A DNA stretch of 64,000 bases from positions 1-64,000 of the forward strand of contig JAILZY010000007.1 in assembly GCA_023512255.1 (NCBI GenBank), read 5' to 3'. Numbering within the stretch: position 1 is the first letter of the stretch; every line of letters starts with the position of its first letter. Positions 8,859 to 25,930 of the stretch are shown one piece after another. The notes beneath the pieces are model-generated. The model saw only the letters and a program-made list of their open reading frames with translations, ran no database searches and was not told where the DNA came from. The translations under genes were made by a program, and so were the position numbers. The DNA comes from a bacterium. Lineage in GTDB: Bacteria; SZUA-182; DTGQ01.

Positions 8859-9009
8859 TAGAAGGGGAAAACCCTTTTGAAAAAGGGTTTTCCCCTTCTA
8901 CCCCCTTTCCCAAAACTTTAATTTTATTAATTAAAGTTTTGGGAGGATGGTTTGGAAGGAACCCTTTTTCAAAAGGGTTCCTTCCAAAAAAAGGGTTCCT
9001 TCCAAAAAG
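8859..9009. repeat. Three-hairpin repeat, copy 2
   Basis: Same structure as 1791-1946: hairpins at 8862-8897, 8909-8943 and 8951-8988, plus a part-copy of the third arm. The outer hairpins are almost identical to copy 1. The middle hairpin differs on both arms in a compensating way (CCTAAAA/TTTTAGG against CCCAAAA/TTTTGGG), which suggests that the stem is conserved. It lies between the divergent export operon and the DapF-like gene and is open in several frames, giving false N-terminal extensions of both. Confidence 0.85.
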
Positions 9010-10323: not shown

Positions 10324-10881
10324 TTGAAAGGGTTAGTGAGGAAGAAAAAGCGGGATGAATTTTGGGTAGCGGTGATTAGCCTTTTTCTATTCTGGATGGC
10401 TATCTCCTCCTGCCAGGCCAAGATCTGGTCAAAATTAGGCCTGATAAACCTTATCGAACATAGTATCGTCGGATTAATTATTTCTCTGCTCATTGTTTCT
10501 CTGTACCCAAAGCCTATTTTCAGCTCCGAGCAAATTGCCACCTATCGTAACTTTGGAGTGATCGTACGCTTACTCCTATACATAAGGCGACTGATGATCG
10601 AGATAGTTATGGCTGGAATTGATGTTGCCAGAAGGGTATTGCGCAGGCAGCTTATGATCTCGCCGGGCATTGTCCAGATCGAAACCCCTCTTAACAGCGA
10701 GGGGGAGATTACCCTGAACGCCAATTCGATTACTCTTACCCCTGGCACGATCACCATTGAGGTTAAAAAAACAGAAAAAGGGAGTATTTTTTGGGTTCAT
10801 TGCATCAGTCAGGAAGCGGTAAAGGAAATAATGGAGAGCGGAGGATTTGTAGACCAAATCCGCGCTCTTTATCGGAGGTAG
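10324..10881 (+). CDS. mrpE: Mrp/MBH antiporter subunit E
   Basis: The 185-residue protein has N-terminal membrane helices and the family-defining motif NSITLTPGTITIEV before a soluble tail (IFWVHCISQEA). MrpE (MbhA in archaeal membrane-bound hydrogenase) is a small structural subunit of Mrp cation/proton antiporter modules. It opens a tightly packed plus-strand cluster in the order mbhA to mbhH. The start is uncertain: TTG at 10324 and GTG at 10336 are both possible. Confidence 0.88.
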   Translation: MKGLVRKKKRDEFWVAVISLFLFWMAISSCQAKIWSKLGLINLIEHSIVGLIISLLIVSLYPKPIFSSEQIATYRNFGVIVRLLLYIRRLMIEIVMAGIDVARRVLRRQLMISPGIVQIETPLNSEGEITLNANSITLTPGTITIEVKKTEKGSIFWVHCISQEAVKEIMESGGFVDQIRALYRR

Positions 10882-10888
10882 CAGGTTT

Positions 10889-11161
10889 ATGGGGCTTGAT
10901 GTTTTGTTAAAATTAGCTATTTTGGTTCTCTCCTGCACAATATTTTTCTGTCTCTACCGGGCAATTCTGGGGCCAACCACAGCCGATCGGATTATTGGCA
11001 TCAACGTGGTAGGGACTAAGGCGGTGGTGGCTTTTGTTTTTCTGGCAGCCATCTTTCAGAAAAGCTCTTATCTGGATATCGCCATGCTCTATGCCATGCT
11101 AATTTATGTAACTACCATTGCTTTTATCAAATACCTAGAGCACCGGCAGTTGGGTGAGTAA
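10889..11161 (+). CDS. mrpF: Mrp/MBH antiporter subunit F
   Basis: This 90-residue protein has three membrane helices and the conserved GPTTADRIIGINVVGTK loop of MrpF/MbhB. GGAGG lies before the ATG. It begins 7 bases after mrpE and its TAA overlaps the next ATG by one base. Small hydrophobic scaffold subunit of the antiporter module. Confidence 0.93.
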   Translation: MGLDVLLKLAILVLSCTIFFCLYRAILGPTTADRIIGINVVGTKAVVAFVFLAAIFQKSSYLDIAMLYAMLIYVTTIAFIKYLEHRQLGE

Positions 11162-11520
11162 TGATCTACGTGAGAATAGCGCTACAGATTTTAGCCGCAG
11201 TGTTTATTATCGCTGGAGTATTTTTCTTCATCGCGGCCACAGTCGGCATTATCCGCATGCCCGACCCTTACAATCGGGCCCATGCAGCCGGCAAAGGAGA
11301 CAGCCCCGGATTTCTCCTTTCATTAACCGGTGTGTGGCTCTACTGGCTGACCATAAATCCAGCGGAGAGTTTTAAGATTTTGCTAATTATTCTCTTTATG
11401 CTGTTTGCCAATCCGATAGCGGTTCATGCTATTTTGCGGTTCTGCTATCGGACGGGTGTGCCGTGGGTGAAGGAAACCACAGTGCATCTTTTGAAGGATC
11501 AAAGGGAAGAGAAGGATTAG
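11161..11520 (+). CDS. mrpG: Mrp/MBH antiporter subunit G
   Basis: The 119-residue protein has three helices and the conserved block GIIRMPDPYNRAHAAGKGDS typical of MrpG/MbhC. Its start overlaps the mrpF stop (TAATG). Structural subunit of the membrane module. Confidence 0.93.
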   Translation: MIYVRIALQILAAVFIIAGVFFFIAATVGIIRMPDPYNRAHAAGKGDSPGFLLSLTGVWLYWLTINPAESFKILLIILFMLFANPIAVHAILRFCYRTGVPWVKETTVHLLKDQREEKD

Positions 11521-11540
11521 GGAAAAAGGGAAGATAAGAT

Positions 11541-11789
11541 ATGGACATGGTGATCCTGGCGCATGTAATTATCCTGATATTTTTGGTGGCCACAGCCCTT
11601 GCGGCCATCATATCCAGGGACCTTTTGGAGTCGGTTATTATTTACAGTGCCTACAGCTTTACCATTACGGTAACCTACAGCATATTGAGGGTTGTGGATG
11701 TAGCCATGACCGAGGCGGCCGTCGGAGCAGGGATTTCCAGCGTCCTGTTTGTAGCCGCTCTCTGCAAAACAAAAAGGAGGGAGGATTAA
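11541..11789 (+). CDS. DUF4040 subunit (MbhD-like; C-terminal part of MrpA)
   Basis: The 82-residue, three-helix protein carries the DUF4040 pattern (RDLLESVIIYSAYSF ... VDVAMTEAAVGAGISSVLF). In Bacillus MrpA this is fused behind the NuoL-like domain; in Pyrococcus MBH it is the separate MbhD. The free-standing form places this cluster with the MBH type. It is related to NuoJ and helps shape a transmembrane ion path. Confidence 0.9.
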   Translation: MDMVILAHVIILIFLVATALAAIISRDLLESVIIYSAYSFTITVTYSILRVVDVAMTEAAVGAGISSVLFVAALCKTKRRED

Positions 11790-11790
11790 G

Positions 11791-12117
11791 TTGAAGAAAT
11801 TTCTCCCGGCTATCCTGTTCACGGTTTTTGCCTTCAGCATGATTATAGTCATCATGGGGTTTAACCCGATTGGAGATCCGCATCTTCCAGGGTATGCAGA
11901 TTTTGTCTCCTCCCCCATAAGCAAACATCAGGTGGTTAAGCAGGCCGATTCCATAGCCCTGCACTACAACCGCCATGCCTGCTCGGACACAGGGGCGATG
12001 GATATTATTGCGGCCATTATTTTTGATTACCGGGGGTATGATACCCTGTTTGAAACCACAGTCTTATTCACTGCCCTGATCGGGGTGCTTTCCATTATCG
12101 GGGTAAAAGAGAGCTGA
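11791..12117 (+). CDS. MbhE-like antiporter subunit
   Basis: The 108-residue protein starts at TTG one base after the previous stop, which suggests coupling. It has an N-terminal helix, a soluble loop with HYNRHACSDTGAMDIIAAIIFDYRGYDTLFE and a C-terminal helix. The DTLFET motif marks the MbhE/MrpA-C-terminal family. In fused MrpA proteins this segment follows DUF4040. Confidence 0.88.
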   Translation: MKKFLPAILFTVFAFSMIIVIMGFNPIGDPHLPGYADFVSSPISKHQVVKQADSIALHYNRHACSDTGAMDIIAAIIFDYRGYDTLFETTVLFTALIGVLSIIGVKES

Positions 12118-12119
12118 TT

Positions 12120-12668
12120 GTGCTAATGAGCGGCCAAAAGGATAAGAAGGAATCGGAATATTGGTCAGGCATTGTCATTCAACTGGTCAGCCGGATCATG
12201 TGTCCGTTCATTATCATGTTTGGAATTTACCTGATAACGCACGGGCACCTGACTCCAGGGGGGGGATTTCAGGGCGGAGTGACTATCGCGGCCTCATTCA
12301 TCCTGTTTGCTCTAGCCTTCAATAAAAAGGAGGGCCGGCAGATGGTCCCATCATTTTGGTTAAAATGTGGAGCAAGTGGGGGAATACTTATTTATATCGG
12401 GGTGGGGTTGGCCGGTATACTCCTTGGGTATAATTTTCTAGCTAACAAAGTGGCTGGCATCTTCCCTCGCGGCCTGCCGGGTGAGCTTCTTAGCTCAGGC
12501 AGCATTTTCTGGATCAATATCGGTGTTGGCCTGGCTGTGGCCAGTATATTCACTGATTTATTTTTCTCGTTTCTGGAAGAGCGCCCGGATGAAACCTGTC
12601 TGAAGACTAAGCAGGAGCTGCCATACCGGAGGAGATGGTCGGATGTTGATAGAAACGGTCTTAAGTAG
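12120..12668 (+). CDS. mrpB: Mrp/MBH antiporter subunit B
   Basis: The 182-residue protein has four helices and the hallmark YLITHGHLTPGGGFQGGV of MrpB/MbhF. GTG at 12120 is spaced well from AGAGAG; ATG at 12126 is an alternative. The 3' end overlaps mrpC by 26 bases. The C-terminal basic tail (about 20 residues) is dispensable-looking and variable in the family. Confidence 0.92.
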   Translation: MLMSGQKDKKESEYWSGIVIQLVSRIMCPFIIMFGIYLITHGHLTPGGGFQGGVTIAASFILFALAFNKKEGRQMVPSFWLKCGASGGILIYIGVGLAGILLGYNFLANKVAGIFPRGLPGELLSSGSIFWINIGVGLAVASIFTDLFFSFLEERPDETCLKTKQELPYRRRWSDVDRNGLK

Positions 12669-13047
12669 AATCGACTACATTGTTACTGTCATTTTGTTTT
12701 GTATCGGGCTCTATGCCTTGATTATAAAACCCAATTTGATTAAGAAGCTGATCGGGATGAACGTGATTGAAACCTCAGTTTACCTGTTTTTCATCGCTTC
12801 GGCAGATGTGCGGCTTGGGCCTGCCAGTTGGCAGTGGGCAGGGCCGTCGGAAATCGCTGATGCCGCGCAAGCGGCTCGCGTGGCAGCCGGGCAGGTGGCT
12901 TTGGTCAATCCGATACCATCGGCCCTCATCTTAACGGCCATTGTGGTTAGCATCAGTGTTACGGCTATCTCTCTGGCCTTATCTATAAAGATCTATGAAC
13001 ATTACGGCACATTGGATACTCGAAAGATCATGAGACTCAAAGGGTAG
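12643..13047 (+). CDS. mrpC: Mrp/MBH antiporter subunit C (NuoK-like)
   Basis: The 134-residue protein has three helices with GMNVIETSVYLFF and NPIPSALILTAIVVSISVTAISLAL, diagnostic of MrpC/MbhG/NuoK. A hydrophilic alanine-rich insert (SEIADAAQAARVAAGQ) sits between helices 2 and 3. Overlap with mrpB indicates co-translation. NuoK-like subunits contribute acidic residues to ion translocation. Confidence 0.93.
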   Translation: MLIETVLSRIDYIVTVILFCIGLYALIIKPNLIKKLIGMNVIETSVYLFFIASADVRLGPASWQWAGPSEIADAAQAARVAAGQVALVNPIPSALILTAIVVSISVTAISLALSIKIYEHYGTLDTRKIMRLKG

Positions 13048-13236
13048 TTATTATTCTTTAAAAATAAAAACATAATCTATAATCCTTGCAGGGCGCGACA
13101 TCAAGGCTAAGAATGCTGTGCGGCTCAGAAGGTGGCGGATGATCATGACAGCGATCCTACGGTGGATATCATTAGAGCGCGAAAGATAGCCAGGTATAAG
13201 CAACTTGTTGATCTAAAGCTCAAAAGAGGCAGACTT

Positions 13237-14802
13237 ATGGATTCATCTATTGGCATCGGTGCATCTCATTTACAAATCTTGATACCGGTTATTATGATAG
13301 CCAGCGCACTCCTGGTTCCCCTAATCTCTAGGGGCAACCCGAGGTATCGCCTCCCGCTGGTCCTTCTGGTTACTGCAGCTGCCTTTCTTGGTTCTGTAGA
13401 CATCCTGGTAAAGGTTATCCTCTCCCCTACTGGATATCTCGAATATATGGCCGGGTATCAATGGGGGGGAAAGAGTCTTCTTCGGACAGGCCAGCCGATC
13501 GGTATTGTCCTTCGCACGGATCTTCTCGGAGCCATCCTGCTGCTTTTGATCAACGGCATTGGTTTTCTAGTGACATTGTATTCCTGCAGATCCGCTCACC
13601 ATGAGGTGCCAGAGGGAAAGCAGCCCTATTATTATACCCTGCTGCTGCTAATGCTGGCCGGCATGTCTGGGATCGCTATAGCCGGCGATTGCTTCAATTT
13701 CTACGTCTTTTTTGAAATTGCTTCTATCAGCTCCTATACTCTAGTCTCTATTAGCGGACGACCGGAATCGCTTGAAGCTACGTTCAAATATATTCTTACC
13801 GGTGCCTTGAGTTCGATCCTCATTGTTTTCGGCATCGGGCTTCTGTTCAATGCCACTGGAACACTCAATATGTATTATGCCTCCCAGCAGATTGCTAAAA
13901 TTGTCAGCTCCCATCCCGAATCGCCCCTCTTTCCCTACCGATACCTGATTTATGCCTCTCTGGGACTATTCATCATGGGGTTTAGCATCAAGGCTGCCTT
14001 TTTCCCCAGCCATGCCTGGTTAGCTGACGCCCATCCGGCAGCCCCATCTTCGATCAGTGCTCTTTTATCAGGTCTGGTGGTCAAAACAACTGGAATTTTC
14101 CTGCTCATTCGCTTCGTATTCACGGTTTTCGGGATTCATAAAGGCTACCTAGGAGAGGTTCTCTCTGTGCTCTTTTTGATTATCAGCATCATCACCATTA
14201 TAAGCGGCTCGCTTTTTGCTATAGTCCAGACTCAATTGAAAAGAATGCTGGCCTACTCAACCATTGCCCAAATGGGCTACATTCTTTTCGGTGTAGCCCT
14301 GGTCACTCCATACGGGCTGGCTGGATCTATTCTCCATATTGTTAATCATGCCATAGTCAAGAGCTTGATGTTTCTGTGCGCTGGAATAATCCTGCACAAA
14401 ACAGACATCAGGGATATAACTGATATGGGAAGATTGGGATATAGAATGCCGGCCACTATGGCCTGCTTCACCATCGGAGCCTGTTCGCTGGTTGGGGTTC
14501 CTCCCATGTGCGGCTTTATGAGCAAATGGGTTTTGGCTACTTCAGCTATTCAGGCGGGCATGCCCTATCTGGTTATTATCCTTTTGATCAGCAGCTTGCT
14601 GAATGCGGTTTATTATTTCCGGGTAGTGGCGATCAGCTATTTTGGAAATCCGAAGATAGAGATAGATACCGTCGATGAAGCACCGAAGACAATGTTGGTG
14701 CCGGTCTGCATATTAGCCGTATTAGTCATTATCCTGGGAGTGCTGGTAAAATATCCTTATCATGCTGCCGCGTTGCCCGCGGCTAGGTTGCTGTTAAGGT
14801 AA
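13237..14802 (+). CDS. mrpD: Mrp/MBH antiporter subunit D (NuoN/NuoM-like), first copy
   Basis: A 521-residue polytopic proton/cation-translocating subunit. It keeps the key charged residues: TM5 glutamate in FYVFFEIASISSYTLVS, TM7 lysine in FSIKAAFFPSHAWLADAHP and TM8 lysine in SGLVVKTTGIF. The distal half-channel region is VGVPPMCGFMSKW. The start at 13237 has GAGG eight bases upstream and matches the family. The frame is open upstream to a GTG at 13132, adding about 35 charged residues, which is less likely. It corresponds to MbhH and closes the canonical eight-gene module. Confidence 0.92.
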   Translation: MDSSIGIGASHLQILIPVIMIASALLVPLISRGNPRYRLPLVLLVTAAAFLGSVDILVKVILSPTGYLEYMAGYQWGGKSLLRTGQPIGIVLRTDLLGAILLLLINGIGFLVTLYSCRSAHHEVPEGKQPYYYTLLLLMLAGMSGIAIAGDCFNFYVFFEIASISSYTLVSISGRPESLEATFKYILTGALSSILIVFGIGLLFNATGTLNMYYASQQIAKIVSSHPESPLFPYRYLIYASLGLFIMGFSIKAAFFPSHAWLADAHPAAPSSISALLSGLVVKTTGIFLLIRFVFTVFGIHKGYLGEVLSVLFLIISIITIISGSLFAIVQTQLKRMLAYSTIAQMGYILFGVALVTPYGLAGSILHIVNHAIVKSLMFLCAGIILHKTDIRDITDMGRLGYRMPATMACFTIGACSLVGVPPMCGFMSKWVLATSAIQAGMPYLVIILLISSLLNAVYYFRVVAISYFGNPKIEIDTVDEAPKTMLVPVCILAVLVIILGVLVKYPYHAAALPAARLLLR

Positions 14803-14893
14803 TTTGTTTTAAGGCAAATAAAAAGGTATAAGAGGTGCTCCCCGGCTTTAGTTGAGTATATTTTTCGGACAGCTCGCTAAGGAGAAAACGATT

Positions 14894-16471
14894 ATGATTA
14901 AAAGCTATCTTCCTTTATTAGTAGTTATGTTCCCTCTTATTGCCATGATCTTTCGCCCCTTTGTCCAGAAGCATCGGCTTTATCATTATACGGCTATTGT
15001 CAGTGGCGTTACCCTGCTCCTCATTCTGGCTATGTATCCGGCAATTGTCGACGGGAATATCCTCGATCTGACCCTGGATACGGGGCTGGGATTTAATTTC
15101 GTTTTCCGGGCTGATCTGCTTGGTCTTTTCGTCGGCCTCATCTCGGTAGTGCTATGGACTTTGTCTTCAATTTATAGCATTGAATATATGCGTCACTCTC
15201 ACGCTCATGCCCGGTTTAACATCTTCTCTCTCCTTTCTCTCAGCGGAATGATGGGGGTAGTCTTTACTGGAAATCTTTTCACTCTTTATATATTTTTTGA
15301 ACTTTTAAGTGTGGCCTCGGCTATTCTTGTCTTCCATGAAGAAACCCCCGAGGCTATGAAAGCAGGCTTTAAGTATCTATTTCTGGGAATCGCCGGAGGA
15401 CTCGTTCTGCTTTTTTCCATTATCATGACCTACTATCTTACCGGAACAGGAGATCTTACCCTAATCGGCCTCGGATTGCAGGGGAGCAAGTGGCTGCCAT
15501 GGATCTTCTGGGGCTATATCATCGGCTTCGGGGTCAAGGCCGGCATGTTCCCTCTGCACATCTGGCTTCCTTCAGCTCACCCGGTAGCTCCCTCAGGAGC
15601 CAGTGCGCTTCTCTCAGGCGTTATGATTAAGGCCGGAGCATATGGAATTTTTAAAACCATCTACCATATCATTGGCTATCAGGACATGGTCAAAAATCAC
15701 ATGGGTCTTATGCTGCCGATGCTGATCATCAGCCTCATAACCATCTTTCTTGGGTCAGCCTGCGCCATCACCCAGACGGAGATCAAAAAGATGCTGGCCT
15801 ACTCCAGTATTTCACAGATCGGCTATATCATCATGGGATTTTGCCTCCTGGCCCCGCGGGGCATCGTTGGGGGCATAATGCACATTTTTGCCCATGCCCT
15901 GATGAAAGGGACCCTCTTTATGTGCGCTGGGGCATTTATCTATAAAACAGGTCTGCGCAACCTCGAAGACCTTAAAGGTATTGGAAGGAGAATGCCTTGG
16001 GTTACCTTGGCTTTCAGCATCTGCGCCTTCTCAATGATCGGGCTGCCACCCTTTGTCGGTTTTATCAGTAAGTGGTTCTTAGCCCTGGGAGCGCTGGATA
16101 TGATGAAAATGGGGAATTACTGGCCAGGATTTGGAATAATCGCTCTGCTGACCCTGCTGCTCAGCAGTCTACTGAATTTGGTCTACTATGGCCCGGTGGT
16201 CATCGGTGCCTGGATGCAGCCAAGAGTCGAGGCACAGACGCAGGATGATGAGACTGTGGCCAGCGATCATAATGGCGAAGCAAACCATCAGGCTCAGCCG
16301 CCTATGGTGGCCTTAGCTGATCAGGGAGCAAAGGAGCACAATAGTGAAGATCCCAATTGGGTCATGCTGACCCCAATTTTAATTTTGACTATGGCTGTTT
16401 TGGTCTTTGGCATCGCGCCAGGGATTCCACTTAATATTGCCTGGCAGATCTGCCATATATTTTTCCCCTAA
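14894..16471 (+). CDS. NuoM/MrpD-like antiporter subunit, second copy
   Basis: The 525-residue polytopic protein has TM5 glutamate (LYIFFELLSVAS), TM7 lysine (GFGVKAGMFPLHIWLPSAHP), TM8 lysine (SGVMIKAGAYG) and IGLPPFVGFISKWF. A GGAG site before 14894 fixes the start, rather than the in-frame TTG at 14852. Between the last two helices lies a hydrophilic insert of about 45 residues rich in Asp, Glu, His and Gln. It is closely similar to the 20177 gene, so the pair probably arose by duplication. Confidence 0.92.
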   Translation: MIKSYLPLLVVMFPLIAMIFRPFVQKHRLYHYTAIVSGVTLLLILAMYPAIVDGNILDLTLDTGLGFNFVFRADLLGLFVGLISVVLWTLSSIYSIEYMRHSHAHARFNIFSLLSLSGMMGVVFTGNLFTLYIFFELLSVASAILVFHEETPEAMKAGFKYLFLGIAGGLVLLFSIIMTYYLTGTGDLTLIGLGLQGSKWLPWIFWGYIIGFGVKAGMFPLHIWLPSAHPVAPSGASALLSGVMIKAGAYGIFKTIYHIIGYQDMVKNHMGLMLPMLIISLITIFLGSACAITQTEIKKMLAYSSISQIGYIIMGFCLLAPRGIVGGIMHIFAHALMKGTLFMCAGAFIYKTGLRNLEDLKGIGRRMPWVTLAFSICAFSMIGLPPFVGFISKWFLALGALDMMKMGNYWPGFGIIALLTLLLSSLLNLVYYGPVVIGAWMQPRVEAQTQDDETVASDHNGEANHQAQPPMVALADQGAKEHNSEDPNWVMLTPILILTMAVLVFGIAPGIPLNIAWQICHIFFP

Positions 16472-16497
16472 AAAGCAGGGTGTGGGGAGTGAAGAAG

Positions 16498-17166
16498 ATG
16501 AAGTACTGGCTGCGCTTGATCCATTTTCCCTATAAAGAGCAGGATAAGAGGGGGCGATCGCCGATGCCTGGGCTGACTCAAGTGTTAGGGAAAATACAAG
16601 GGAAGCTTTGGATTGTGGCTTTATCCATGCTGATCCTTCTGGCCGCAGAAGGAGTCTTGTGGTGTTCGTCTCATCATATAATAAAAGAGTCTGGTCATAT
16701 AAAAGAGTCTGCTCATTCTGAGCTCATCACTACCCTCTCTCATAACTCTGATCAGGGAGAAATTAACCATCACTCCACCTCAATTCCTGTTCTATATAAA
16801 CTGTACTGGATCGGTCTAATCATCATGGTGGTCCTAATGGTAGGGTATTTTTTCTTTCTCCATCCAAAGGAGAAATATCAGTTCATCAAGCCGCTAACCA
16901 TAATTTTCATCTTGTTAGCTCTTTCCCTCTATCTTATAGAGCAAGGAAGGGTTTTCACTGGATATTTCGACCCCAGCGCGGGGGGCAGATTTGTCTCTGG
17001 ATATCATGAAAATAACGAGATAGGATTTTTACGATTTGTATACAAGCTGACCCTGGGAATGGCTCTCTGGGCGTTTGGGTTTATTACCTACCAGGTTAGG
17101 CTAAAAAATAAAAAAAGCGCCATGTTAGCGGGGGGGACAAAAGTGAGGCAAGGAGAAGGAGAATGA
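16498..17166 (+). CDS. Three-helix membrane protein of unknown function in the antiporter cluster
   Basis: Not recognised. The 222-residue protein has a basic N-terminus, a first helix (LWIVALSMLILLAAEGVLW), a histidine-rich loop (about residues 55-95), two central helices around WIGLIIMVVLMVGYFFF and LTIIFILLALSLYLIEQG, and possibly a fourth (LGMALWAFGFITYQV). ATG at 16498 has GGGGAG eight bases upstream, better than the GTG at 16480. The stop overlaps the next gene (ATGA), so it is likely co-translated with the receiver-GGDEF protein. It may be an accessory or sensory membrane subunit; that is inference from position only. Confidence 0.75.
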   Translation: MKYWLRLIHFPYKEQDKRGRSPMPGLTQVLGKIQGKLWIVALSMLILLAAEGVLWCSSHHIIKESGHIKESAHSELITTLSHNSDQGEINHHSTSIPVLYKLYWIGLIIMVVLMVGYFFFLHPKEKYQFIKPLTIIFILLALSLYLIEQGRVFTGYFDPSAGGRFVSGYHENNEIGFLRFVYKLTLGMALWAFGFITYQVRLKNKKSAMLAGGTKVRQGEGE

Positions 17167-18173
17167 ATTCCACCGAGCAGACCAAGATTCTAATTGTCGA
17201 TGATGATCCGGATACGCGGGATATTATCAGGTTAAGTTTAAATTCCCGCGCCTACCGCATATCAGAGGCACGAACAGGCGTTGAGGCCTTGGAGAAGGTA
17301 AATGCCTATGATCCTGACATTGTGGTGCTTGATATAATGCTGCCGGAAAAATCAGGCATGGAAGTGTGCAAGGCTATCAAGGAAAGTACTAAAACTGCTC
17401 ATGTTCCAGTAATCATGTTGACCGCCAAGCAGACTATCCACGATAAGATAGAGGGGCTGAATATCGGCGCCGATGACTACCTGGTCAAACCCTTTGATCC
17501 GCTAGAGCTTGAGGCCAGGATCAAGGCCTTGCTCCGAAAAATGAGGCGAGACCTCTATGCCAATCCCCTAACCCACCTGCCGGGCAATGTGCCCATCGAG
17601 AAGGAAATTCAGCGAGCCATTGATGAGCAAAGAAGCTTTGCCGCTTTATTTATTGATCTTGATAATTTTAAAGTCTACAACGATAACTATGGTTATGCAG
17701 CTGGAAATAGAATTATCAAATTCTGCGCTCAAACAATCCTGGACAGCGTGAAGCGCTTTGGGAATGCTCAAGACTTTGTCGGCCATATAGGCGGAGATGA
17801 TTTTGTGGTCCTGACCACGCCGGATAAAGCGGATCAGATCTGTCAGGAAATTATCAGGATCTTTGACAGTCTCATCCCGATTCAATACAACGAGGAGGAT
17901 GTAACCCGAGGCTACCTAATCAGCGAGGATCGGCGGGGAGAGGTGAAAAAGTTTCCGCTGATGACTATTTCAATTGCGGTCATTACCAATGAAAATAATC
18001 AGTTTATCCATCACTTGCAGGTCGCTGAAAAGGCTGCGGAATTAAAACGGCATATTAAAAAGATCGAGGGCAGCAAATACCAGAAAGACCGACGAAAGAG
18101 CCCGACACTGGCCCTCAAAAATGACACGGCTGACCCTTCGCTCTCGGCGCCACCAGCAATGGATGGGCAGTAA
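17163..18173 (+). CDS. Response regulator with GGDEF-type output domain
   Basis: 336 residues. An intact receiver domain (LIVDDDPD, VVLDIMLP, DDYLVKPFDP) covers about residues 8-125. It is followed by a diguanylate-cyclase-fold domain with FAALFIDLDNFKVYND and GGDDF in place of GGDEF. The change is conservative; whether it makes c-di-GMP is open. The C-terminus is a disordered-looking tail. It starts inside the preceding membrane-protein gene (ATGA) and is followed by the hybrid kinase. It lies between two antiporter subunit genes, so it may tie signalling to ion transport. Confidence 0.88.
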   Translation: MNSTEQTKILIVDDDPDTRDIIRLSLNSRAYRISEARTGVEALEKVNAYDPDIVVLDIMLPEKSGMEVCKAIKESTKTAHVPVIMLTAKQTIHDKIEGLNIGADDYLVKPFDPLELEARIKALLRKMRRDLYANPLTHLPGNVPIEKEIQRAIDEQRSFAALFIDLDNFKVYNDNYGYAAGNRIIKFCAQTILDSVKRFGNAQDFVGHIGGDDFVVLTTPDKADQICQEIIRIFDSLIPIQYNEEDVTRGYLISEDRRGEVKKFPLMTISIAVITNENNQFIHHLQVAEKAAELKRHIKKIEGSKYQKDRRKSPTLALKNDTADPSLSAPPAMDGQ

Positions 18174-18192
18174 GTTGCGTATGGATGGGCAG
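18159..18192 (+). repeat. Post-stop duplication of a gene end
   Basis: The last codons of the preceding gene (ATGGATGGGCAG, 18159-18170) recur exactly at 18181-18192, just beyond its TAA. One case of a pattern seen at many gene ends in this window. Confidence 0.75.
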
Positions 18193-18235
18193 AGTAGCGT
18201 GTTGTTTAGGCCTCCAGCTTATTGCGGCTGCTTTC

Positions 18236-18315
18236 AGCAGCATGTGGTAGTAGTTTTTTTCTGAAGTGTTTAGTGAGCAGCATGTGGTAGTAGTTTTTTT
18301 CTGAAGTGTTTAGTG
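18236..18315 (+). repeat. Perfect 40-bp tandem duplication
   Basis: Two identical 40-bp units (18236-18275 and 18276-18315), beginning AGCAGCATGTGGTAGTAG, fill the gap before the hybrid kinase gene. A partial third unit follows (GTAGTTTTTTGAGG). The identity implies a recent duplication. Confidence 0.9.
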
Positions 18316-18343
18316 GTAGTTTTTTGAGGTATTTTCAGGATTT

Positions 18344-20101
18344 ATGAATCTTTCGATTACTCAGAAGCTGGCGATCGGATTTTTGACCATTGCCTTCTCT
18401 ACGGCTGCGGTCGGCACCTTGGCTTATGTTTCCCTGCTGCGGATCGGCTCTGAGCTTCAGGTGGTTGTGGCCGCGCCTTTAAATACTGCATCGGCCAGGG
18501 ACAGAGAAATTGTTCAACGAGTCAGGCGGTTAATTAGGCAATCGGCCCAAGATAAGATCATTCTTTTCGCTGGCATGATCCTGAGCTTTATCATTGCCTG
18601 GTGGGGATGGCTATTTTTATCTCGCCAGGTGGCCGATCCGATTATTTCTTTAACCCAAAAGGCTGATCTGATCAGCCAGCAGAGCGGCAAATTACATGAG
18701 ACAGTCGCCACCAGCGGCCAGGATGAGACCAAAAAGCTAGCCAGGGTCTTCAACCAGATGAGCGCCTCCTTGCAGGAGCAGCAGATGGAGATCGAGAGGA
18801 TTAATCGGGAACTAGAGAGGCGAGATCAGCTATTGGGTGAAGCCAATGCCAAACTGGAGCGACTGAATGCCATGAAATCGGATTTTCTGTCAATTCTCTC
18901 TCATGAGCTACGCACGCCGCTCACGGTAATCAAAGGGTATCTGTCGCTAATGAAAAATCAGCGACTTGGGCCAATCAATGAACAACAACTAAAAGGGCTG
19001 ACCATAGCTGATGAGCGAGCGGATCATCTAAATAGCCTGATCAGTGACCTGCTCGATCTGTCCCGGATCGAATTGAATAAGTATGAAATCCGGCAGGAGG
19101 TTTGGGATTTGGCCAAAATGGCCGAGGCTGCTGTCGATTCTATGCGGCCATTATTTGAAAAAAAGGGGCTGCGATTCAAAACCCATATTCCGGCTGAGCT
19201 TCCGCTGGTTTATGCGGATAAGCAAAAAGTTTCTCAGGTGCTCACCAACCTGTTGAGTAATGCTATTAAGTTTACGCCAGCCGGAGGAGAGGTTATCCTA
19301 GAAGCACTCCCCAGCGTTGAGGAGCGAAGCGGTGAAGAGAGCCGGCCAGAAGGCGATGATTTTGTGCAGATTAATGTCAAAGATACTGGAATTGGTCTGG
19401 CAGAGGAGGAAATTCAGAAGATTTTTGATAAGTTTTATCAAGTAGATGACTCGGTAACTCGAGAACATAGCGGCAGCGGTCTTGGGCTTTGCATTGCCAG
19501 AAATATCGTCGAGTTACATCATGGCCGGATGTGGGTCAAGAGCCGAAAAGGAGAGGGAAGCACCTTTTCCTTCACCCTACCCAAAGCTGACTCTAGCTTA
19601 ATGACTGAGGCGAAGGCCGCGCCCTCGGCCAAAGAAGGAAAGCCGCTGTTTAGCTTGTCAGCAGCCGACAAGAAGGTCAGCTCAGATAGCCGAAAGAGGC
19701 AGGAAAGCGGCGGCGAGGATATGGCTGAGCGCAGCATTCTGCTTGTGGATAATAATCCTCTCATCCAGCAGTTAATCATAACCTGCCTCAGTGCTTTGCC
19801 CTGCAAGATCATAACCGCTAGCGACGGGATCGAGGCCCTAGAGAGGGTGTTTCAAACCCCTGTGGATTTAATTGTGCTCGATATCAATCTCCCAAGGCTC
19901 AGCGGCTATGATCTGTGCCAGATTATCAAAACAAATGAGAAAACCAAACACATTCCAGTTGTCATTCTCTCGGCCTCTGCCCAGCGATCTGAGATCGAAC
20001 GCGGCTTTCAGATGGGAGCAAATGACTATATCACCCACCCCTTCGTACCGGAGGAGGTAGTAAAAAGAATTCACAACTTGATGATAAGCAAGACAGCCTG
20101 A
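18344..20101 (+). CDS. Hybrid sensor histidine kinase with degenerate C-terminal receiver
   Basis: 585 residues. Two helices (about 8-32 and 72-92) enclose a short periplasmic loop. A HAMP-like linker and coiled coil follow, then HisKA (SHELRTPL, phospho-acceptor His187) and HATPase_c (N-box NLLSNAIKFT, DTGIGL, GSGLGL). A receiver domain begins near residue 464. The receiver keeps the phospho-acceptor aspartate (IVLDINLPRLSG), but its acidic pocket reads VDNN instead of VDDD and the conserved Lys is His (DYITHPF), so phosphorylation chemistry is probably impaired. It is likely the partner of the adjacent receiver-GGDEF protein. The sensed signal is unknown; the periplasmic loop is only about 40 residues. 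Confidence 0.9.
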   Translation: MNLSITQKLAIGFLTIAFSTAAVGTLAYVSLLRIGSELQVVVAAPLNTASARDREIVQRVRRLIRQSAQDKIILFAGMILSFIIAWWGWLFLSRQVADPIISLTQKADLISQQSGKLHETVATSGQDETKKLARVFNQMSASLQEQQMEIERINRELERRDQLLGEANAKLERLNAMKSDFLSILSHELRTPLTVIKGYLSLMKNQRLGPINEQQLKGLTIADERADHLNSLISDLLDLSRIELNKYEIRQEVWDLAKMAEAAVDSMRPLFEKKGLRFKTHIPAELPLVYADKQKVSQVLTNLLSNAIKFTPAGGEVILEALPSVEERSGEESRPEGDDFVQINVKDTGIGLAEEEIQKIFDKFYQVDDSVTREHSGSGLGLCIARNIVELHHGRMWVKSRKGEGSTFSFTLPKADSSLMTEAKAAPSAKEGKPLFSLSAADKKVSSDSRKRQESGGEDMAERSILLVDNNPLIQQLIITCLSALPCKIITASDGIEALERVFQTPVDLIVLDINLPRLSGYDLCQIIKTNEKTKHIPVVILSASAQRSEIERGFQMGANDYITHPFVPEEVVKRIHNLMISKTA

Positions 20102-20121
20102 TGATTAGTAAGACTCTTTAA
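20081..20121 (+). repeat. Tandem copy of the kinase C-terminus and stop
   Basis: ATG...TGA at 20081-20101 encodes MISKTA-stop. The next 21 bases, 20101-20121, encode MISKTL-stop with synonymous changes in the I, S and T codons. The unit therefore repeats the end of the gene including the stop codon, with period 20. Confidence 0.7.
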
Positions 20122-20137
20122 GAAGATAAATGCGAGT

Positions 20138-20186
20138 GAGACCTATGAACCAGAAAATAGATAGCAAGAGAGACCTATGAACCAGA
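20138..20186 (+). repeat. Duplicated start region creating an 11-codon leader ORF
   Basis: A 17-bp direct repeat (GAGACCTATGAACCAGA at 20138-20154 and 20170-20186) duplicates the start region of the next gene 32 bases upstream. The upstream ATG at 20145 opens an 11-codon frame whose TGA overlaps the real ATG at 20177 (ATGA), an arrangement suited to translational coupling. Confidence 0.7.
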
Positions 20187-21691
20187 TTATCAGCTTCCTA
20201 CCTTTGTTAGCCTTATCCATTCCTCTGCTCGGAATCATAGTCATCCTTTGGGTCAGCGAGCGATTTCCGCAAAGTGTCAATCTCCTTACCGCGCTCAGCA
20301 CTCTTCTCACCGCTTTTGCGGTAGCCACCATGTATCCAACCATCAGAGCCGGTGGGAGCCTTACCAAGAGCTTTGTCCTATTTACGGCTCCTCAGGTGGG
20401 ATTTATCCCGCTGGTTTTCTCCTTCAGGGTCGATGCGCTGGGGTTTTTCGTTGGGCTGATCGCGACTGTAGTTTGGATGCTGTCAAGCTTTTTTGCCATT
20501 GAATTCATGCGGAAAAAACATGCTCAGATACGCTATGATATTTTTTCACTTCTTACCCTGATCGGTATGCTCGGGGTTGTCTTTGCCGCAGATTTATTTA
20601 CCCTGTATGTTTTCTTTGAGCTTTTAAGTGTTGCCTCCCTGGTGTTGGTAATTCATGAGCAGACTCAGGAGGCCATGCGGGGTGGGGTGATCTACATTTT
20701 CATGGGAATCTGCGGAGGTCTTATTCTCCTTATGTCAATCCTGCTGACCTGTTCCATAAGCGGCTCGACCGATATTGTGGCCGCAGGAGCTGGCCTCAAA
20801 GAAAGCAGGCTGCTGCCGCTGATTTTTTGGGGCTATATTCTTGGCTTTGGAGTCAAGGCTGGCATCTTCCCCCTGCACTTTTGGATGCCTTCGGCCTATC
20901 CGCAAACTCCAACCTGCGCCGTAGCTCTCTCCTCCGGGGTGATGATCAAGGCCGGAGCCTATGGGATCATCAGAACCATCTACAGCATCATCGGTCTTGA
21001 TGCCCTGCGGGGAAGGTGGCTAGTGCCTATCCTGCTAGTTGCAGCTCTGGTATCCATTTTTGTTGGCTCTGCAGCCGCCATCAACCAAAAGGATATCAAA
21101 AAGCTACTTGGCTACTCCAGTGTATCGCAGATCGGCTATATAATCCTTGGTCTGACCCTGCTCTCTCCCCTGGGGCTGACTGCCGGGATTGTCCATATTT
21201 TCAATCACGCGATTATTAAAGCTACCCTATTTTTGTGCGCTGGTGCGATTTTTCACCAAAGCGGCAAAAGGTATCTTGACGAGCTCAAGGGGATTGGAAA
21301 GAGTATGCCCCTGATAACCGCCTGCTTCACTATGGCCGCTCTGTCAATGATTGGGCTTCCACCCTTCAATGGCTTTATCAGCAAGTGGTTTCTGGCTGCC
21401 GGAGCACTGGATGCGGTCAAGATAGGCTCATATCATCTAGGGGTAGGCATTCTGGCTGTTGGCACTCTTATTGTCAGCAGCTTTATGAACCTGATCTACT
21501 ACGGCCCGATTGTCTATAACGCCTGGTTTGGAACCCAAACTTATCCTTCGAAAGATGAGGCGGGGCAAGATCCCAAACCGGTGATGATGATTCCAGTTTT
21601 ACTGCTGGCCCTTGGAACAGTGATTTTCGGAATTTTCCCTGGTTTTCCGCTGAGCATTGCCTGGCGGATCAGTCAATTTTATTTCCACTAG
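20177..21691 (+). CDS. NuoM/MrpD-like antiporter subunit, third copy
   Basis: The 504-residue polytopic protein has TM5 glutamate (LYVFFELLSVASLVL), TM7 lysine (GFGVKAGIFPLHFWMPSAYP), TM8 lysine (SGVMIKAGAYGIIRTIY) and IGLPPFNGFISKWFL. The usual SAHP after TM7 reads SAYP. It is very close to the 14894 gene over its whole length, so the two are probable paralogues from duplication within the cluster. An 11-codon leader frame overlaps its start. Confidence 0.92.
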   Translation: MNQIISFLPLLALSIPLLGIIVILWVSERFPQSVNLLTALSTLLTAFAVATMYPTIRAGGSLTKSFVLFTAPQVGFIPLVFSFRVDALGFFVGLIATVVWMLSSFFAIEFMRKKHAQIRYDIFSLLTLIGMLGVVFAADLFTLYVFFELLSVASLVLVIHEQTQEAMRGGVIYIFMGICGGLILLMSILLTCSISGSTDIVAAGAGLKESRLLPLIFWGYILGFGVKAGIFPLHFWMPSAYPQTPTCAVALSSGVMIKAGAYGIIRTIYSIIGLDALRGRWLVPILLVAALVSIFVGSAAAINQKDIKKLLGYSSVSQIGYIILGLTLLSPLGLTAGIVHIFNHAIIKATLFLCAGAIFHQSGKRYLDELKGIGKSMPLITACFTMAALSMIGLPPFNGFISKWFLAAGALDAVKIGSYHLGVGILAVGTLIVSSFMNLIYYGPIVYNAWFGTQTYPSKDEAGQDPKPVMMIPVLLLALGTVIFGIFPGFPLSIAWRISQFYFH

Positions 21692-21755
21692 GCAAAAAGC
21701 GCAAGAGTTTATCAGCATCGAAAGAGTTTTAGCATCGAAAGAAAAGAGTGGTCCC

Positions 21756-24644
21756 ATGAACAAGACAGCAGCAGCAAGAGCAGCATTGGCCGCCTTTGGC
21801 CTAATTTTTATATTTTCCCTCTGGAGCTTTTTCCCTTTTTCTCATCCGACAGCAGTGTCTGAAATTTGGGCATCCTCGACTTCCTCTTTGCTAGAAGAGA
21901 GTGCCCACCATGCGGCGAGCGAGGCTTATCGAAAAATTGACCCTAAAGCATCTATCTTTTCCCCACTGCCGGTAGTGATTATTCTGATTCCTCTGCTTGG
22001 CGCCCTGATGCTCCTTTGGCTTTGCCGCAAGGACAAACAGGGGCAAGGGGGGATCATCGTAACCTTGAGCAGCGGTCTTGCCCTAGCCACATCCTTCCTA
22101 ATGTATTCGCCAGTCATACAGGGTAAGTGGACTGCCGCTACTTTTGGGGGAGCAGCAGCTTATCGTCAGGGGATTTTCTATACAATTCCCTTTTTGCCTG
22201 CTTTTTCACTCAATCTGACCTTCAGGGTTGATCCGGCTGCCTTGATGTTAGTCATCTTGAGCTGTCTGGTGTGGTTTTGGGTAGCTATTTTTTCGCAAGG
22301 ATATTTAGCCATTGAAGGACAAAGGCTGCGGTATAATGTGGCCAACCTCTGTGCTCTAAGTGCAACTGTGGGGACCTTTTTGGCCGGAGACCTTTTTACC
22401 CTGTACATATTCTATGAATTGATCCTCATTTTTCTCTACCTGATGGTTATTCACCGTGAGGATGAGGAGGCTTTACAGTCGGCCAAAATTTATCTCTACT
22501 TTGGGGTATTTTGTGGCCTTTTGCTATTGTTTGGGATTTTTCTCTTCTCCTATTTTACTGGTACGGTGGATATTCAGAGTGCAGCCGAAGCCCTTGGCCG
22601 GATGAGATATCCAGCCCTCAAGTATTGTCTAGCTGCACTCTTTCTGTTAGGATTTGGCGGCAAGGCCGGCATATTTCTTGAGCATATCTGGATGCCATCC
22701 TCCTACGGTTCTGCTCCTTGTCTCACGGCCGCCCTCTCTTCAGGGATCATGATCGAGGTGGGGGCTTACGGGATATTTCGAACCGTTAACATGATCTTTG
22801 CCCCTTCAAGCCACCTGGGGGAAGGCTCCTCGGCCTGGATAACCTCGGCTCAATTAGGCTATGTGCTAATCTTTGTGGGAATTGTAACTATGCTACTTGG
22901 GGCGATCAATGCCCTTTTCTCCACCCAGGCGCTGCGGCTTTTGGCCTACTCCAGTGTCAGCCAAATGGGCTACATTGTCATGGGCATCGGCTGTGCCGCC
23001 TATATGGGAAGCAGCGGGGCCATGGGGCTTGCGGGTGCGCTATACCACATCATCAACCATGCCCTGTTCAAGGTGGGATTGTTCCTGAGTATCGGTGCGG
23101 TCTACTTTCACACCAGAGAGCTTGACATTCGAAAGCTTGGTGGATTATGGCGGGATTTGCCGATCGCCAGCCTGACATTTTTGATCAGCGCCTTGGCAAT
23201 TGCCGGTTTTCCTCCGCTGAACGGTTTTGCCAGCAAAACCATGCTCCACCATGCCATCCTGGAGGCATATCAGCACTCGGTCCACTTCTCCCCCTCGCAT
23301 CTGCCTGATTTTTGGCTTCGGATAGCTGAAATCGTGTTCATTATTACTGCCGGCGGAACATTTGCCTACAATATGAAACTTTTCAGCATGGTCTTTCTGG
23401 GATCGAAAAAAGAGGGAGAAAAAAAGCCTACTTCCTCATCGCCCCTTAGTATGAATATCGCTCTGCTCCTTTTTGCAGCCGGAATTGTGCTTTTGGGATT
23501 TTTCCCCAACTGGCTGCTAGAAAATTTCATCGGCCCTATGTTGCCCTACTTTGGCTTTGACTCCCACTCTCATGCCTACCATATGATTTATAATCCCAAG
23601 GCCGCTAGCTTTTTACGCTCCGCCTTGCCGCTGTGGTATGATCCTGCTCAACGAAGTCTTCTGGCCAGCAGCCAGGTGATTCACAACCTTTCATCGGGCA
23701 GCACCGCCATTTTGCTTGGAGGCCTGGTTTTCCTTATCTTCCTGGCCTTTGGATTTTCGGAAAAGCAGCTCTCTCCTGCCTGGGCACTGACGACTTACTA
23801 CCAAAAAGTGTTTTTTGGCTTTCACTCTCTGTGCCATCTGATCTACACCACAGTCGTGGCCGCAGCAGAAAAGACCATTTCCGTACTCATGGTCTATCTG
23901 TGGATTCCAGAGATCAAATTGGAATTGATTGTCCCGAAATCACCTGCACAGGCCAAACATGGAATGTTTCGGGTAATTTCCAAGGTGGACGAGCAGTATG
24001 CCCATAGCATAGATCAGACGGTACGAGCTAAGGGAATGTTTGGCCATATTTCAAAAATAGATCAGATGTATGATCATATTTTTGATAAGGCCAAGGATAT
24101 TGTAGCTGAAGATGGGATATTTGACCGAATTTCTGAGGTTGAGGAGAAATTTTCAACCTCCATTGATCGGGCAGCAGAAAGCCGAGGCCTCTTTAGCCGG
24201 GCCACCAAAGCCGATGGCCAATTGAGCGGGGCGTATGACCAGGTTATCTTCAGCAGATTCTTCTGGGGGATCCTGGCCAGACGTGATGAATTCAAGGCCG
24301 GCCTGTGGAAGTATTTCAATCTGATCGAGAACTGGTATGACCGAATCGTCGAGCGTACCCTGTTTGATATCCTCGGCTCTGAAGATCTATCTAAAATTCA
24401 ATTAGCAGGCGAAGACTTTGCCAGCTCATGGTTTTTGCGTCTTTGCAAAAGGGCAAGCGAAATCCATACCGGAGATATCAGCCACTATATCTCTTGGATC
24501 GCTATCGCCTTGACCATTATCATCGGCACTTTAGTTGGCTTTCTCTACATTAAGACATTCTTTGCCATGATCGTGGCTTTATCAACCATCATCACCTTTT
24601 TCGGTGTGCTGGCTGCGGTGATCACATTTTTTTTCAAACGATAG
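21756..24644 (+). CDS. Long NuoL/N-like antiporter subunit with a novel C-terminal repeat extension
   Basis: 962 residues, nearly twice a normal subunit. After an N-terminal helix, about residues 65-640 form a NuoL/M/N-type channel domain with TM5 glutamate (LYIFYELILIFLYL) and TM7 lysine (GFGGKAGIFLEHIWMPSS). The TM8 lysine is replaced by glutamate (SGIMIEVGAYG). About 290 residues follow that normal family members lack. They include four tandem repeats near residues 735, 759, 786 and 810 (pattern xGhFxxISKVDExYxxxID), an amphipathic stretch and two terminal helices (ISWIAIALTIIIGTLVGFLY; FFAMIVALSTIITFFGVL). ATG at 21756 is used because the frame upstream lies inside the preceding gene. The extension may bind a partner or form a lateral strut; that is inference. 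Confidence 0.85.
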   Translation: MNKTAAARAALAAFGLIFIFSLWSFFPFSHPTAVSEIWASSTSSLLEESAHHAASEAYRKIDPKASIFSPLPVVIILIPLLGALMLLWLCRKDKQGQGGIIVTLSSGLALATSFLMYSPVIQGKWTAATFGGAAAYRQGIFYTIPFLPAFSLNLTFRVDPAALMLVILSCLVWFWVAIFSQGYLAIEGQRLRYNVANLCALSATVGTFLAGDLFTLYIFYELILIFLYLMVIHREDEEALQSAKIYLYFGVFCGLLLLFGIFLFSYFTGTVDIQSAAEALGRMRYPALKYCLAALFLLGFGGKAGIFLEHIWMPSSYGSAPCLTAALSSGIMIEVGAYGIFRTVNMIFAPSSHLGEGSSAWITSAQLGYVLIFVGIVTMLLGAINALFSTQALRLLAYSSVSQMGYIVMGIGCAAYMGSSGAMGLAGALYHIINHALFKVGLFLSIGAVYFHTRELDIRKLGGLWRDLPIASLTFLISALAIAGFPPLNGFASKTMLHHAILEAYQHSVHFSPSHLPDFWLRIAEIVFIITAGGTFAYNMKLFSMVFLGSKKEGEKKPTSSSPLSMNIALLLFAAGIVLLGFFPNWLLENFIGPMLPYFGFDSHSHAYHMIYNPKAASFLRSALPLWYDPAQRSLLASSQVIHNLSSGSTAILLGGLVFLIFLAFGFSEKQLSPAWALTTYYQKVFFGFHSLCHLIYTTVVAAAEKTISVLMVYLWIPEIKLELIVPKSPAQAKHGMFRVISKVDEQYAHSIDQTVRAKGMFGHISKIDQMYDHIFDKAKDIVAEDGIFDRISEVEEKFSTSIDRAAESRGLFSRATKADGQLSGAYDQVIFSRFFWGILARRDEFKAGLWKYFNLIENWYDRIVERTLFDILGSEDLSKIQLAGEDFASSWFLRLCKRASEIHTGDISHYISWIAIALTIIIGTLVGFLYIKTFFAMIVALSTIITFFGVLAAVITFFFKR

Positions 24645-24839: not shown

Positions 24840-25811
24840 ATGCAGTCGAAAGAAAAAGAAAATCTTGGTAGGGCATTGCAAATTATTTTGGCGAGGAGCT
24901 TTACTTATTTAAGCTTATTGGTTATTATAATCTTCATTATCTATTTCGTGAGAAGAAAGCCGTTTCAGGACTCAATTCCGACAGGGGTACGGGACATAGT
25001 AGCCATCGTCGATGGCTACTCGGAATATAAAGCACATATCCAAGGAGTGCGGGAGGGGCTTTTGTTCAAGGGCATTCACACTATCTTCTATGAGGAATCA
25101 AAGCTTGGAGAGATTAAGGAGAATCCTGTCTATGTCATCGGAACAGAGAAGGTGAAACGGGTTCTTGAAAAGCTGCCCGGACGCACCATCATCGGCTATG
25201 CTCAGTTTCAGGAAAAGCCCGCTGACAATTATACGGGAGTTTTTTCAGGATTTGACTGGGCCGAGGGCATTAAGTTCTACAGGCGAATTTTACCAGGGCT
25301 TAAGAGAGTTGGGGTTGTCTATTCGGAAACTATCCCTTGGTCCAGAGAACAGTTTGAGGCCCTGCAAAGCTTTGTCAGCAGCCAGCCAGAACTTGAGATA
25401 GAGATAACTCCTTTGCCGATCCCTAAAAACGGCAGAGAACTTCAAGAAAAATTGGATTCTCTTCTCAACACAGTAGATGCCCTCCTGGGGGTTGTTCAGG
25501 ACAAAAATATTGAGGCCGCCTTGCCGATCATCATCTCAAGCTGCCTCAATCACAAACGCCCTTTCATAGGCGGAGGAAAGACAGGAGCGCAAATGGGAGC
25601 CTTGGCTGCCCTGGAATATGATCAAAAGCGACTCGGCAGGCAGGTAGCAGACACGATTATTTCTCAGATTATCAGGCAGCATAAAACGCCTGCCCAGATT
25701 CCCATTCTTATTCCTCAACCGCAGATCTTTATCAATCTTTCTACTTCCTATAAATTGGGCATCCAGCTTCCCAAAGATATTAAAGATCAAGCCGCGGAGA
25801 AATACTCCTAG
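24840..25811 (+). CDS. Membrane-anchored ABC substrate-binding-like protein
   Basis: The 323-residue protein has one N-terminal helix (LSLLVIIIFIIYFVRR) and then a periplasmic-binding fold of the TrpX/YtrF-like ABC_sub_bind type (EGIKFYRRILPGLKRVGVVY, a central VDALLGVVQDKN, a C-terminal GRQVADTIISQII). No permease or ATPase genes lie next to it, so it may work as a sensor or scaffold rather than in transport. GAAGGA lies upstream. The gap before it contains a 15-bp direct repeat (GGAAATAAGGCAG, near 24647 and 24762). The coiled-coil gene follows after 119 bases. Confidence 0.75.
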   Translation: MQSKEKENLGRALQIILARSFTYLSLLVIIIFIIYFVRRKPFQDSIPTGVRDIVAIVDGYSEYKAHIQGVREGLLFKGIHTIFYEESKLGEIKENPVYVIGTEKVKRVLEKLPGRTIIGYAQFQEKPADNYTGVFSGFDWAEGIKFYRRILPGLKRVGVVYSETIPWSREQFEALQSFVSSQPELEIEITPLPIPKNGRELQEKLDSLLNTVDALLGVVQDKNIEAALPIIISSCLNHKRPFIGGGKTGAQMGALAALEYDQKRLGRQVADTIISQIIRQHKTPAQIPILIPQPQIFINLSTSYKLGIQLPKDIKDQAAEKYS

Positions 25812-25890
25812 GGGGGAAGATATTAGGCAATTTGGATAAGAGCTCTCTTTAAAAAAACCAAACTTGAAGCACTATAGTACTCCTAGGGGG
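25803..25890 (+). repeat. Post-stop duplication of a gene end
   Basis: TACTCCTAGGGGG at 25803-25815 (last two codons and stop of the preceding gene) recurs at 25878-25890. Confidence 0.65.
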
Positions 25891-25930
25891 AGAGAGTAGG
25901 AGATGAAGTTCACCATTTTGGGAGAATGAA

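Follow-up and report, generated by a model that had tools for sequence, protein, structure and literature searches.

Mrp antiporters of group 3 lack mrpA, sometimes carry several mrpD genes, and include both stand-alone and redox-linked members (PMC8415708). P. furiosus itself has a stand-alone Mrp of this group, encoded by mrpEFGBB'CD (PMC8415708). In the Mrp structure, MrpA-N is placed at the far end and the helix HL braces the complex (PMC7419157). Among the complexes I with extra pumps, five ion-pumping subunits have been reported in Manganitrophaceae, and a 26-residue insert in the same lateral helix was read as room for one more pump (PMC9040806). Here, we describe a gene cluster at positions 10324-24644 of a 64,000-nucleotide (nt) stretch of bacterial DNA (contig JAILZY010000007.1 of assembly GCA_023512255.1), hereafter called the window, which represents contig C77 of a 3.8-Mb draft genome (G000) that is 96.6% complete. 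The cluster is an enlarged group 3 Mrp, neither a redox-less hydrogenase remnant nor a signalling-transport system, and its extra subunits have counterparts within the complex I operons of relatives.

The cluster contains fourteen genes, all on the plus strand and most of them packed closely. They are listed here together with two regions inside the last gene, D4L, and the gene that follows it.

10324..10881, plus strand: MrpE/MbhA-like subunit (PF01899, 9.5e-28)
10889..11161, plus strand: MrpF/MbhB-like subunit (PF04066, 9.4e-16)
11161..11520, plus strand: MrpG/MbhC-like subunit (PF03334, 1.9e-23)
11541..11789, plus strand: MbhD-like protein, MrpA C-terminal part (PF13244, 2.1e-17)
11791..12117, plus strand: MbhE-like protein, MrpA C-terminal part (PF20501, 4e-7, barely over the cut-off; several MrpA C-terminal NCBIfam models)
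12120..12668, plus strand: MrpB/MbhF-like subunit (PF04039, 6.8e-30)
12643..13047, plus strand: MrpC/MbhG-like subunit (PF00420)
13237..14802, plus strand: D1, MrpD/MbhH-like antiporter subunit (PF00361; open reading frame from 13132)
14852..16471, plus strand: D2, extra MrpD-like antiporter subunit (PF00361)
16480..17166, plus strand: TM3, small conserved membrane protein between D2 and D3/D4L (without Pfam family)
17163..18173, plus strand: receiver-GGDEF protein with a GGDDF motif (PF00072, PF00990)
18344..20101, plus strand: hybrid histidine kinase, HAMP-HisKA-HATPase-REC (Pfam)
20177..21691, plus strand: D3, second extra MrpD-like antiporter subunit (PF00361)
21756..24644, plus strand: D4L, MrpA/NuoL-like end subunit (PF00361, weak PF00662; open reading frame from 21657)
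23793..24464, plus strand: lateral-helix region of D4L between transmembrane helices (TM) 15 and 16, ~223 residues
23958..24254, plus strand: four degenerate repeats of 24-25 residues (GIFDxISxxDxxYxxxIDxA) in the lateral-helix region of D4L
24840..25811, plus strand: membrane-anchored, PF04392 binding-protein-like gene

The gaps from MrpE to MrpC range from -26 to 20 nt, and D2 is separated from TM3 by 8 nt. TM3 and the receiver-GGDEF gene overlap by 4 nt (ATGA at 17163), and wider gaps are found upstream of D1 (189 nt) and of the kinase (170 nt). These measurements agree with the single strand, close spacing and ATGA overlap of an initial annotation of the window, which was made without database searches. 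For D1, the start at 13237 appears more likely than that at 13132, because the relatives lack the first 35 residues. The D4L protein has 962 residues, as annotated initially, if it starts from the ATG at 21756, and 995 residues if it starts from the TTG at 21657.

The first eight genes have the order E-F-G-MbhD-MbhE-B-C-D1, which is that of a complete group 3 Mrp base of the membrane-bound hydrogenase (MBH) type, and are followed by the antiporter-like subunits D2, D3 and D4L, by TM3 and by the embedded pair of genes for the receiver-GGDEF protein and the hybrid kinase. Pfam and NCBIfam name MrpE, F, G, MbhD, MbhE, MrpB and MrpC as well as four Proton_antipo_M subunits, which bears out the mbhA-H gene order and the three extra antiporter-like subunits (PF00361 in D2, D3 and D4L) noted initially. 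MrpB, C, D, E, F and G are located in one cluster according to both databases, there is no intact mrpA, the genes of the MbhD and MbhE type are separate, and four genes contain PF00361. By sequence kinship, the base is of the MBH type, i.e. group 3 of the published scheme, because D1 is nearest to MbhH of P. furiosus (6cfw_H; 278 bits versus 176 bits for Mrp D) and MrpC is nearest to subunit G of MBH and MBS (6cfw_G, 69.6 bits, and 6u8y_G, 68.1 bits, versus 34.9 bits for Mrp C).

The proton-path and coupling residues of group 3 are present, except for the His pair of MrpC, which is replaced. D1, D2, D3 and D4L all have the Glu of TM5 and the Lys residues of TM7 and TM12, and therefore none of the four antiporter subunits looks dead. 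The E/K/K/K residues of the proton path are intact in D1, D2 and D3, and D4L contains the TM12 Lys and the E/K residues, with the TM8 Lys changed to Glu. In the MbhD-like protein, alignment to 6u8y_D and 6cfw_D shows that the DVAMTEAAVGAG motif with the coupling Glu is retained, and the MrpF-like protein retains the GPT..DR and LD motifs (aligned with MrpF of 6z16 and MbhB of 6cfw). In MrpC, a Glu is placed at the cation-ligand position, which is His in Mrp and Asp in MBH, and Glu in MBS.

The group 3 Mrp of P. furiosus has the same base subunits in a near-identical order and no redox module. An Mrp of the MBH type that lacks a redox module has thus been described before (PMC8415708), and the initial suggestion of an undescribed system fails in this respect. 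That the extra subunits belong to a cascade-independent cassette common to complex I was not visible from the window alone. While the P. furiosus Mrp has a single MrpD and no energy-input (MrpA-N) module, the cluster in the window adds D2, D3, TM3 and the NuoL/MrpA-like D4L. The MBH and MBS complexes of Thermococcales share the A-H subunit order, and D1 and MrpC resemble MbhH and MbhG/MbsG, respectively. However, the cluster lacks the I-N hydrogenase or reductase subunits and has other antiporter subunits on that side. The classical Mrp complexes with MrpA (groups 1 and 2) are similar in having a NuoL-like end subunit with a lateral helix, MrpD and small subunits, but in the window MrpA is split into D4L, MbhD and MbhE, there are four antiporter subunits rather than two, and TM3 and a very long lateral-helix region are added.

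The cluster was compared with relatives from the same genus (G001), the same family (G002 and G003), another family of the order (G004) and the class (G005-G008), and with two genomes of one genus from another phylum (G094 and G235). All four genomes of the order keep the transporter genes, including D2, TM3, D3 and D4L, together, as an intact block in G001, G002 and G004, and on split contigs in G003. An Mrp base with Dx-D2-(TM3)-D4L is also found in G005, G008, G094 and G235. The clusters in G005 and G008 contain D1, another D subunit (Dx), D2 and TM3, with D4L next to them in G005 and on a separate contig in G008. TM3 is missing from the Mrp cluster in G235, and the cluster in G094 extends over two contigs. 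As stated in the initial annotation, no hydrogenase, NuoBCD-like or other redox genes were found within the cluster in the window, including NuoB, C, D, H and I, and neither this cluster nor those of the relatives contain MbhJ-N or MbsJ-N redox subunits.

The 49-kDa complex I subunit (PF00346) was not found in G002, G003 or G004, all of which keep the cluster. In G004 (93% complete), neither PF00346 nor the [NiFe] hydrogenase family PF00374 was found. Each of these absences is weak alone, as the three genomes are drafts of 91-95% completeness, but jointly they favour a stand-alone transporter. The cluster in the window is best read as a stand-alone antiporter, because all genomes of the order keep the transporter genes, one of them without the complex I large subunit and a [NiFe] hydrogenase.

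The TM3 protein (228 residues) consists of an N-terminal hydrophobic segment, a His-rich linker and a three-helix core, consistent with its initial description as a three-helix protein, and P, Y, W, H and G residues are invariant in the family. It belongs to no Pfam family and has no PDB match below E = 3. A TM3 profile searched against 386 genomes gave clear matches only in all nine genomes of the class and in G094 and G235. Judged by its sequence, TM3 is a real conserved family.

The ~223-residue stretch between TM15 and TM16 in D4L compares with ~44 residues in the E. coli NuoL, as measured from the sequences with similar anchors. This region shows helical amphipathicity at 90-95 degrees (z ~3 relative to shuffles) and none at strand periods, and the TG-Y anchor motif is seen. 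The four repeat units are recovered by a profile built from G002 and G004 only (sequence E 9.7e-25; best shuffled linker 4.7 bits). The spread of the linker among the genomes resembles that of TM3, except that there is no match in G006 and G007. In G094, the nuo-associated D4L contains near-perfect 25-residue tandem repeats (a 75-nt DNA repeat in 3.4 copies), and G235 has fewer units. As for a single repeat family across the two phyla, there was no convincing match between the nuo repeat of G094 and the Mrp repeat units, and the repeat profile from the order of the window scored 5.9 bits against the Mrp linker of G094, below the 6.7 bits of shuffled sequence.

The cluster probably encodes an Mrp-family cation/proton antiporter that works on its own, with an MBH-type group 3 base and an enlarged proton arm; a long proton arm is suggested because the proton residues of D1-D4L and the MbhD and MrpF motifs are kept. 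From the observed gene content, conservation, kinship and kept residues, we infer the following assembly order, ion, stoichiometry and direction. The E, F, G, MbhD, MbhE, B and C subunits would form the cation path, most likely for Na+, with D1 adjoining the small subunits, and D2, D3 and the MrpA/NuoL-like D4L lengthening the arm outward. TM3 may serve as an additional small membrane subunit. D4L would cap the far end, and its very long amphipathic lateral helix would strap the row and return to its TM16 anchor next to the small subunits. As each cation path would be served by four proton channels, rather than two, more protons would be moved per cation, and the higher proton/cation ratio would allow cations to be expelled where the gradient is steeper, or the proton-motive force lower, than an ordinary Mrp could cope with. 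The receiver-GGDEF/kinase pair would be a later insertion and at most a co-regulator.

Some observations weigh against this proposal. AlphaFold modelled D4L with low confidence (mean pLDDT 49), too low to show the long helix. Nor does the length of the linker track the subunit count across the two types of complex, as it ranges from 153 to 246 residues in Mrp clusters with four antiporter subunits and from 109 to 137 in complexes I with five. Finally, the Glu in MrpC replaces the His pair of the classical Mrp, which makes the transported ion uncertain.

The D2-TM3-(D3)-D4L block is also located within nuo operons, in three of the relatives from the class and in the two genomes from the other phylum. 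In G005, G006 and G007, the block is placed between nuoK and nuoM/nuoN, resulting in five antiporter-like subunits (Dx, D2, D4L, M and N); the D2-type gene in G007 is interrupted by a frame change in the draft. The operon in G094 and G235 contains six antiporter-like subunits, in the order nuoABCDHIJK-Dx-D2-TM3-D3-D4L-M-N-E-F-G, which applies to G235 and, over the part of its contig that was read, to G094. In G235, the operon spans nuoA through nuoF, with nuoG extending past the stretch read, and Pfam supports nuo A, B, C, D, H, I, J, K, E and F. In a phylogeny of 63 antiporter-like subunits, the D4L copies from Mrp and complex I form one clade (100/99), and the Dx and D2/D3 clades likewise mix copies from the two complexes. 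The D1 clade contains only Mrp copies (100/99), and NuoM and NuoN contain only complex I copies. D3 falls within the D2/D3 clade, where its exact place is unsettled.

MrpD-like subunits between nuoK and nuoM are also a feature of the rhizobial green complex I, the 2M complex of Nitrospira and Complex_I_3 of Manganitrophaceae (PMC9040806), in which the lateral helix is likewise longer with more pumps. The Rhizobium complex I also has a small open reading frame between MrpD1 and MrpD2, but homology of TM3 to its product was not supported (1.3 bits). The complex in the window differs from these complexes in that it lacks the nuo redox genes, and the complexes I of its relatives differ in that they combine Dx-D2-TM3-(D3)-D4L with M and N, giving five to six pumps compared to the four or five that have been reported. 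A search of the literature, mostly open-access, retrieved no complex I with more than five ion-pumping subunits.

The six-subunit complex I loci are located on C96 of G094 (L088, 3175-14109) and C9 of G235 (L089, 6423-16968), both with TM3. A second nuo-type cluster in G005 (C50, L048, 4675-18561) contains J, K, two NuoM-like subunits, a NuoN-like subunit, Dx, D2, TM3 and D4L, and thus again six antiporter-like subunits; the contig ends immediately upstream of nuoJ. Two small proteins with cyclic-nucleotide-binding domains are encoded around nuoE/nuoF within the complex I operon (L051, 12664-15983; L050, 10971-14418; supported by Pfam in L051 only).

We consider the chances even that the MrpD-like subunits, TM3 and the repeat-extended D4L represent an interchangeable extension cassette that fits both Mrp and complex I, giving a stand-alone Mrp four channels and a complete complex I six, so that bacteria would tune the proton/ion ratio through the number of channel units. 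In complex I, the length of the lateral helix is ~44 residues with three subunits (E. coli), ~72 with four (Rhizobium), 109-137 with five and 211-263 with six. A strict ruler, in which this length is set by the number of antiporter subunits, was rejected, as the lengths in G094 and G235 are 52 residues apart despite equal subunit numbers and the Mrp clusters with four subunits span the range given above.

The initial annotation left open whether the transporter is stand-alone or coupled to a redox module encoded elsewhere, and proposed a search for such genes. The genome contains a complex I cluster on C147 and [NiFe] hydrogenases on other contigs, but none of these is conserved with the Mrp cluster, and they were rejected as redox partners. 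The complex I cluster on C147 (L061), and that on C79 in G001 (L062), contains nuoA, B, C, D, H, I, J, K, M and N, and lacks nuoL and nuoEFG. A D subunit paired with a shortened D4L (669 residues, in which the TM16 anchor motif was not found) is encoded on C42 (C87 in G001), and may be the NuoL substitute of the C147-type complex I. Another locus, on C130 (L060, 9274-12027), encodes a hydrogenase-like large subunit, in which the N-terminal ligand motif is RICGICP, together with a NuoB-like small subunit and a ferredoxin-like protein, but no membrane subunits. It is improbable that the Mrp is the membrane arm of a redox pump with its redox part encoded elsewhere, for example by this hydrogenase-like module. 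The MBH/MBS type of the base and the lack of membrane subunits on C130 are consistent with such a pump. However, G001-G004 keep the Mrp cluster with no C130-type 49-kDa match found, G004 has neither PF00346 nor PF00374, and the MBH structure docks its redox module where D2-D4L would sit here (PMC7419157).

The receiver-GGDEF and kinase genes were initially taken as part of the system. While D2, TM3, D3 and D4L are conserved throughout the order, the signalling pair is in place within the cluster in G001-G003 only, and is missing from the cluster in G004, G005, G008, G094, G235 and the rest of the class. In G094 and G235, receiver-GGDEF copies with 59-60% identity to that in the window, and adjoining kinases with 36-37% identity, stand away from any transporter as a separate two-gene unit. 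These units (L094, 9875-13423; L095, 9997-13525) are located beside a possibly globin-like sensor gene. Because it is absent from the other family and the rest of the class, and stands alone in another phylum, the pair most likely entered this operon by insertion of a separate two-gene unit, and is not a part of the transporter. It is improbable that the two proteins sense ion stress and set the activity or expression of a dedicated signal-gated transporter: three genera share the position and gene order of the pair within the operon, and the window has the ATGA overlap, but five genomes have the cluster without it, and its relatives in G094 and G235 adjoin a different, sensor-like gene.

Slightly less probable still is that D2-TM3-D3-D4L serve the nuoL-less complex I on C147 and that the Mrp consists of the first eight genes only, since, although related D2/D4L cassettes do occur within complex I operons, the separate D and D4L-like pair on C42 (C87 in G001) could fill that role, the block adjoins the Mrp base in G002-G004, where the complex I large subunit was not found, and the D4L in the window is sister to that of G004, one of these three genomes.

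Downstream of the antiporter, the PF04392 gene is located at the same place in G001, G002, G003 and G004 (80, 55, 51 and 31% identity, respectively). It accompanies the transporter in more genomes than the signalling pair does, and is a possible accessory of the transporter. In the window, it is followed by a gene for an 889-residue coiled-coil protein (24840-28600 for the two genes), and a coiled coil also adjoins it in G004. Elsewhere in the window, at 8859-9006 and 1799-1915, there is a nested palindromic repeat, AACCCTTTTTCAAAAGGGTT, in paired inverted copies ~90 nt apart. In the genome, exact copies number 108 when both strands of the palindromic-like motif are counted, with none in G001 (of the same genus), G002 or G004, and the repeat is a genome-specific element resembling repetitive extragenic palindromes or miniature inverted-repeat transposable elements (REP/MITE-like).

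The link between the Mrp and complex I cassettes, along with the six-pump complex I in the relatives, is the part that merits the attention of specialists. How electron transfer in complex I is coupled to the distant proton channels, and whether one proton is moved per antiporter subunit and cycle, is an open question, for which natural complexes with a common cassette, having four channels in Mrp and five or six in complex I, lend themselves to comparison. At one proton per channel, the measured H+/ion and H+/electron ratios would be expected to increase with the number of channels. These complexes would also show that the membrane arm is built of blocks that are exchangeable between a passive antiporter and a redox pump.

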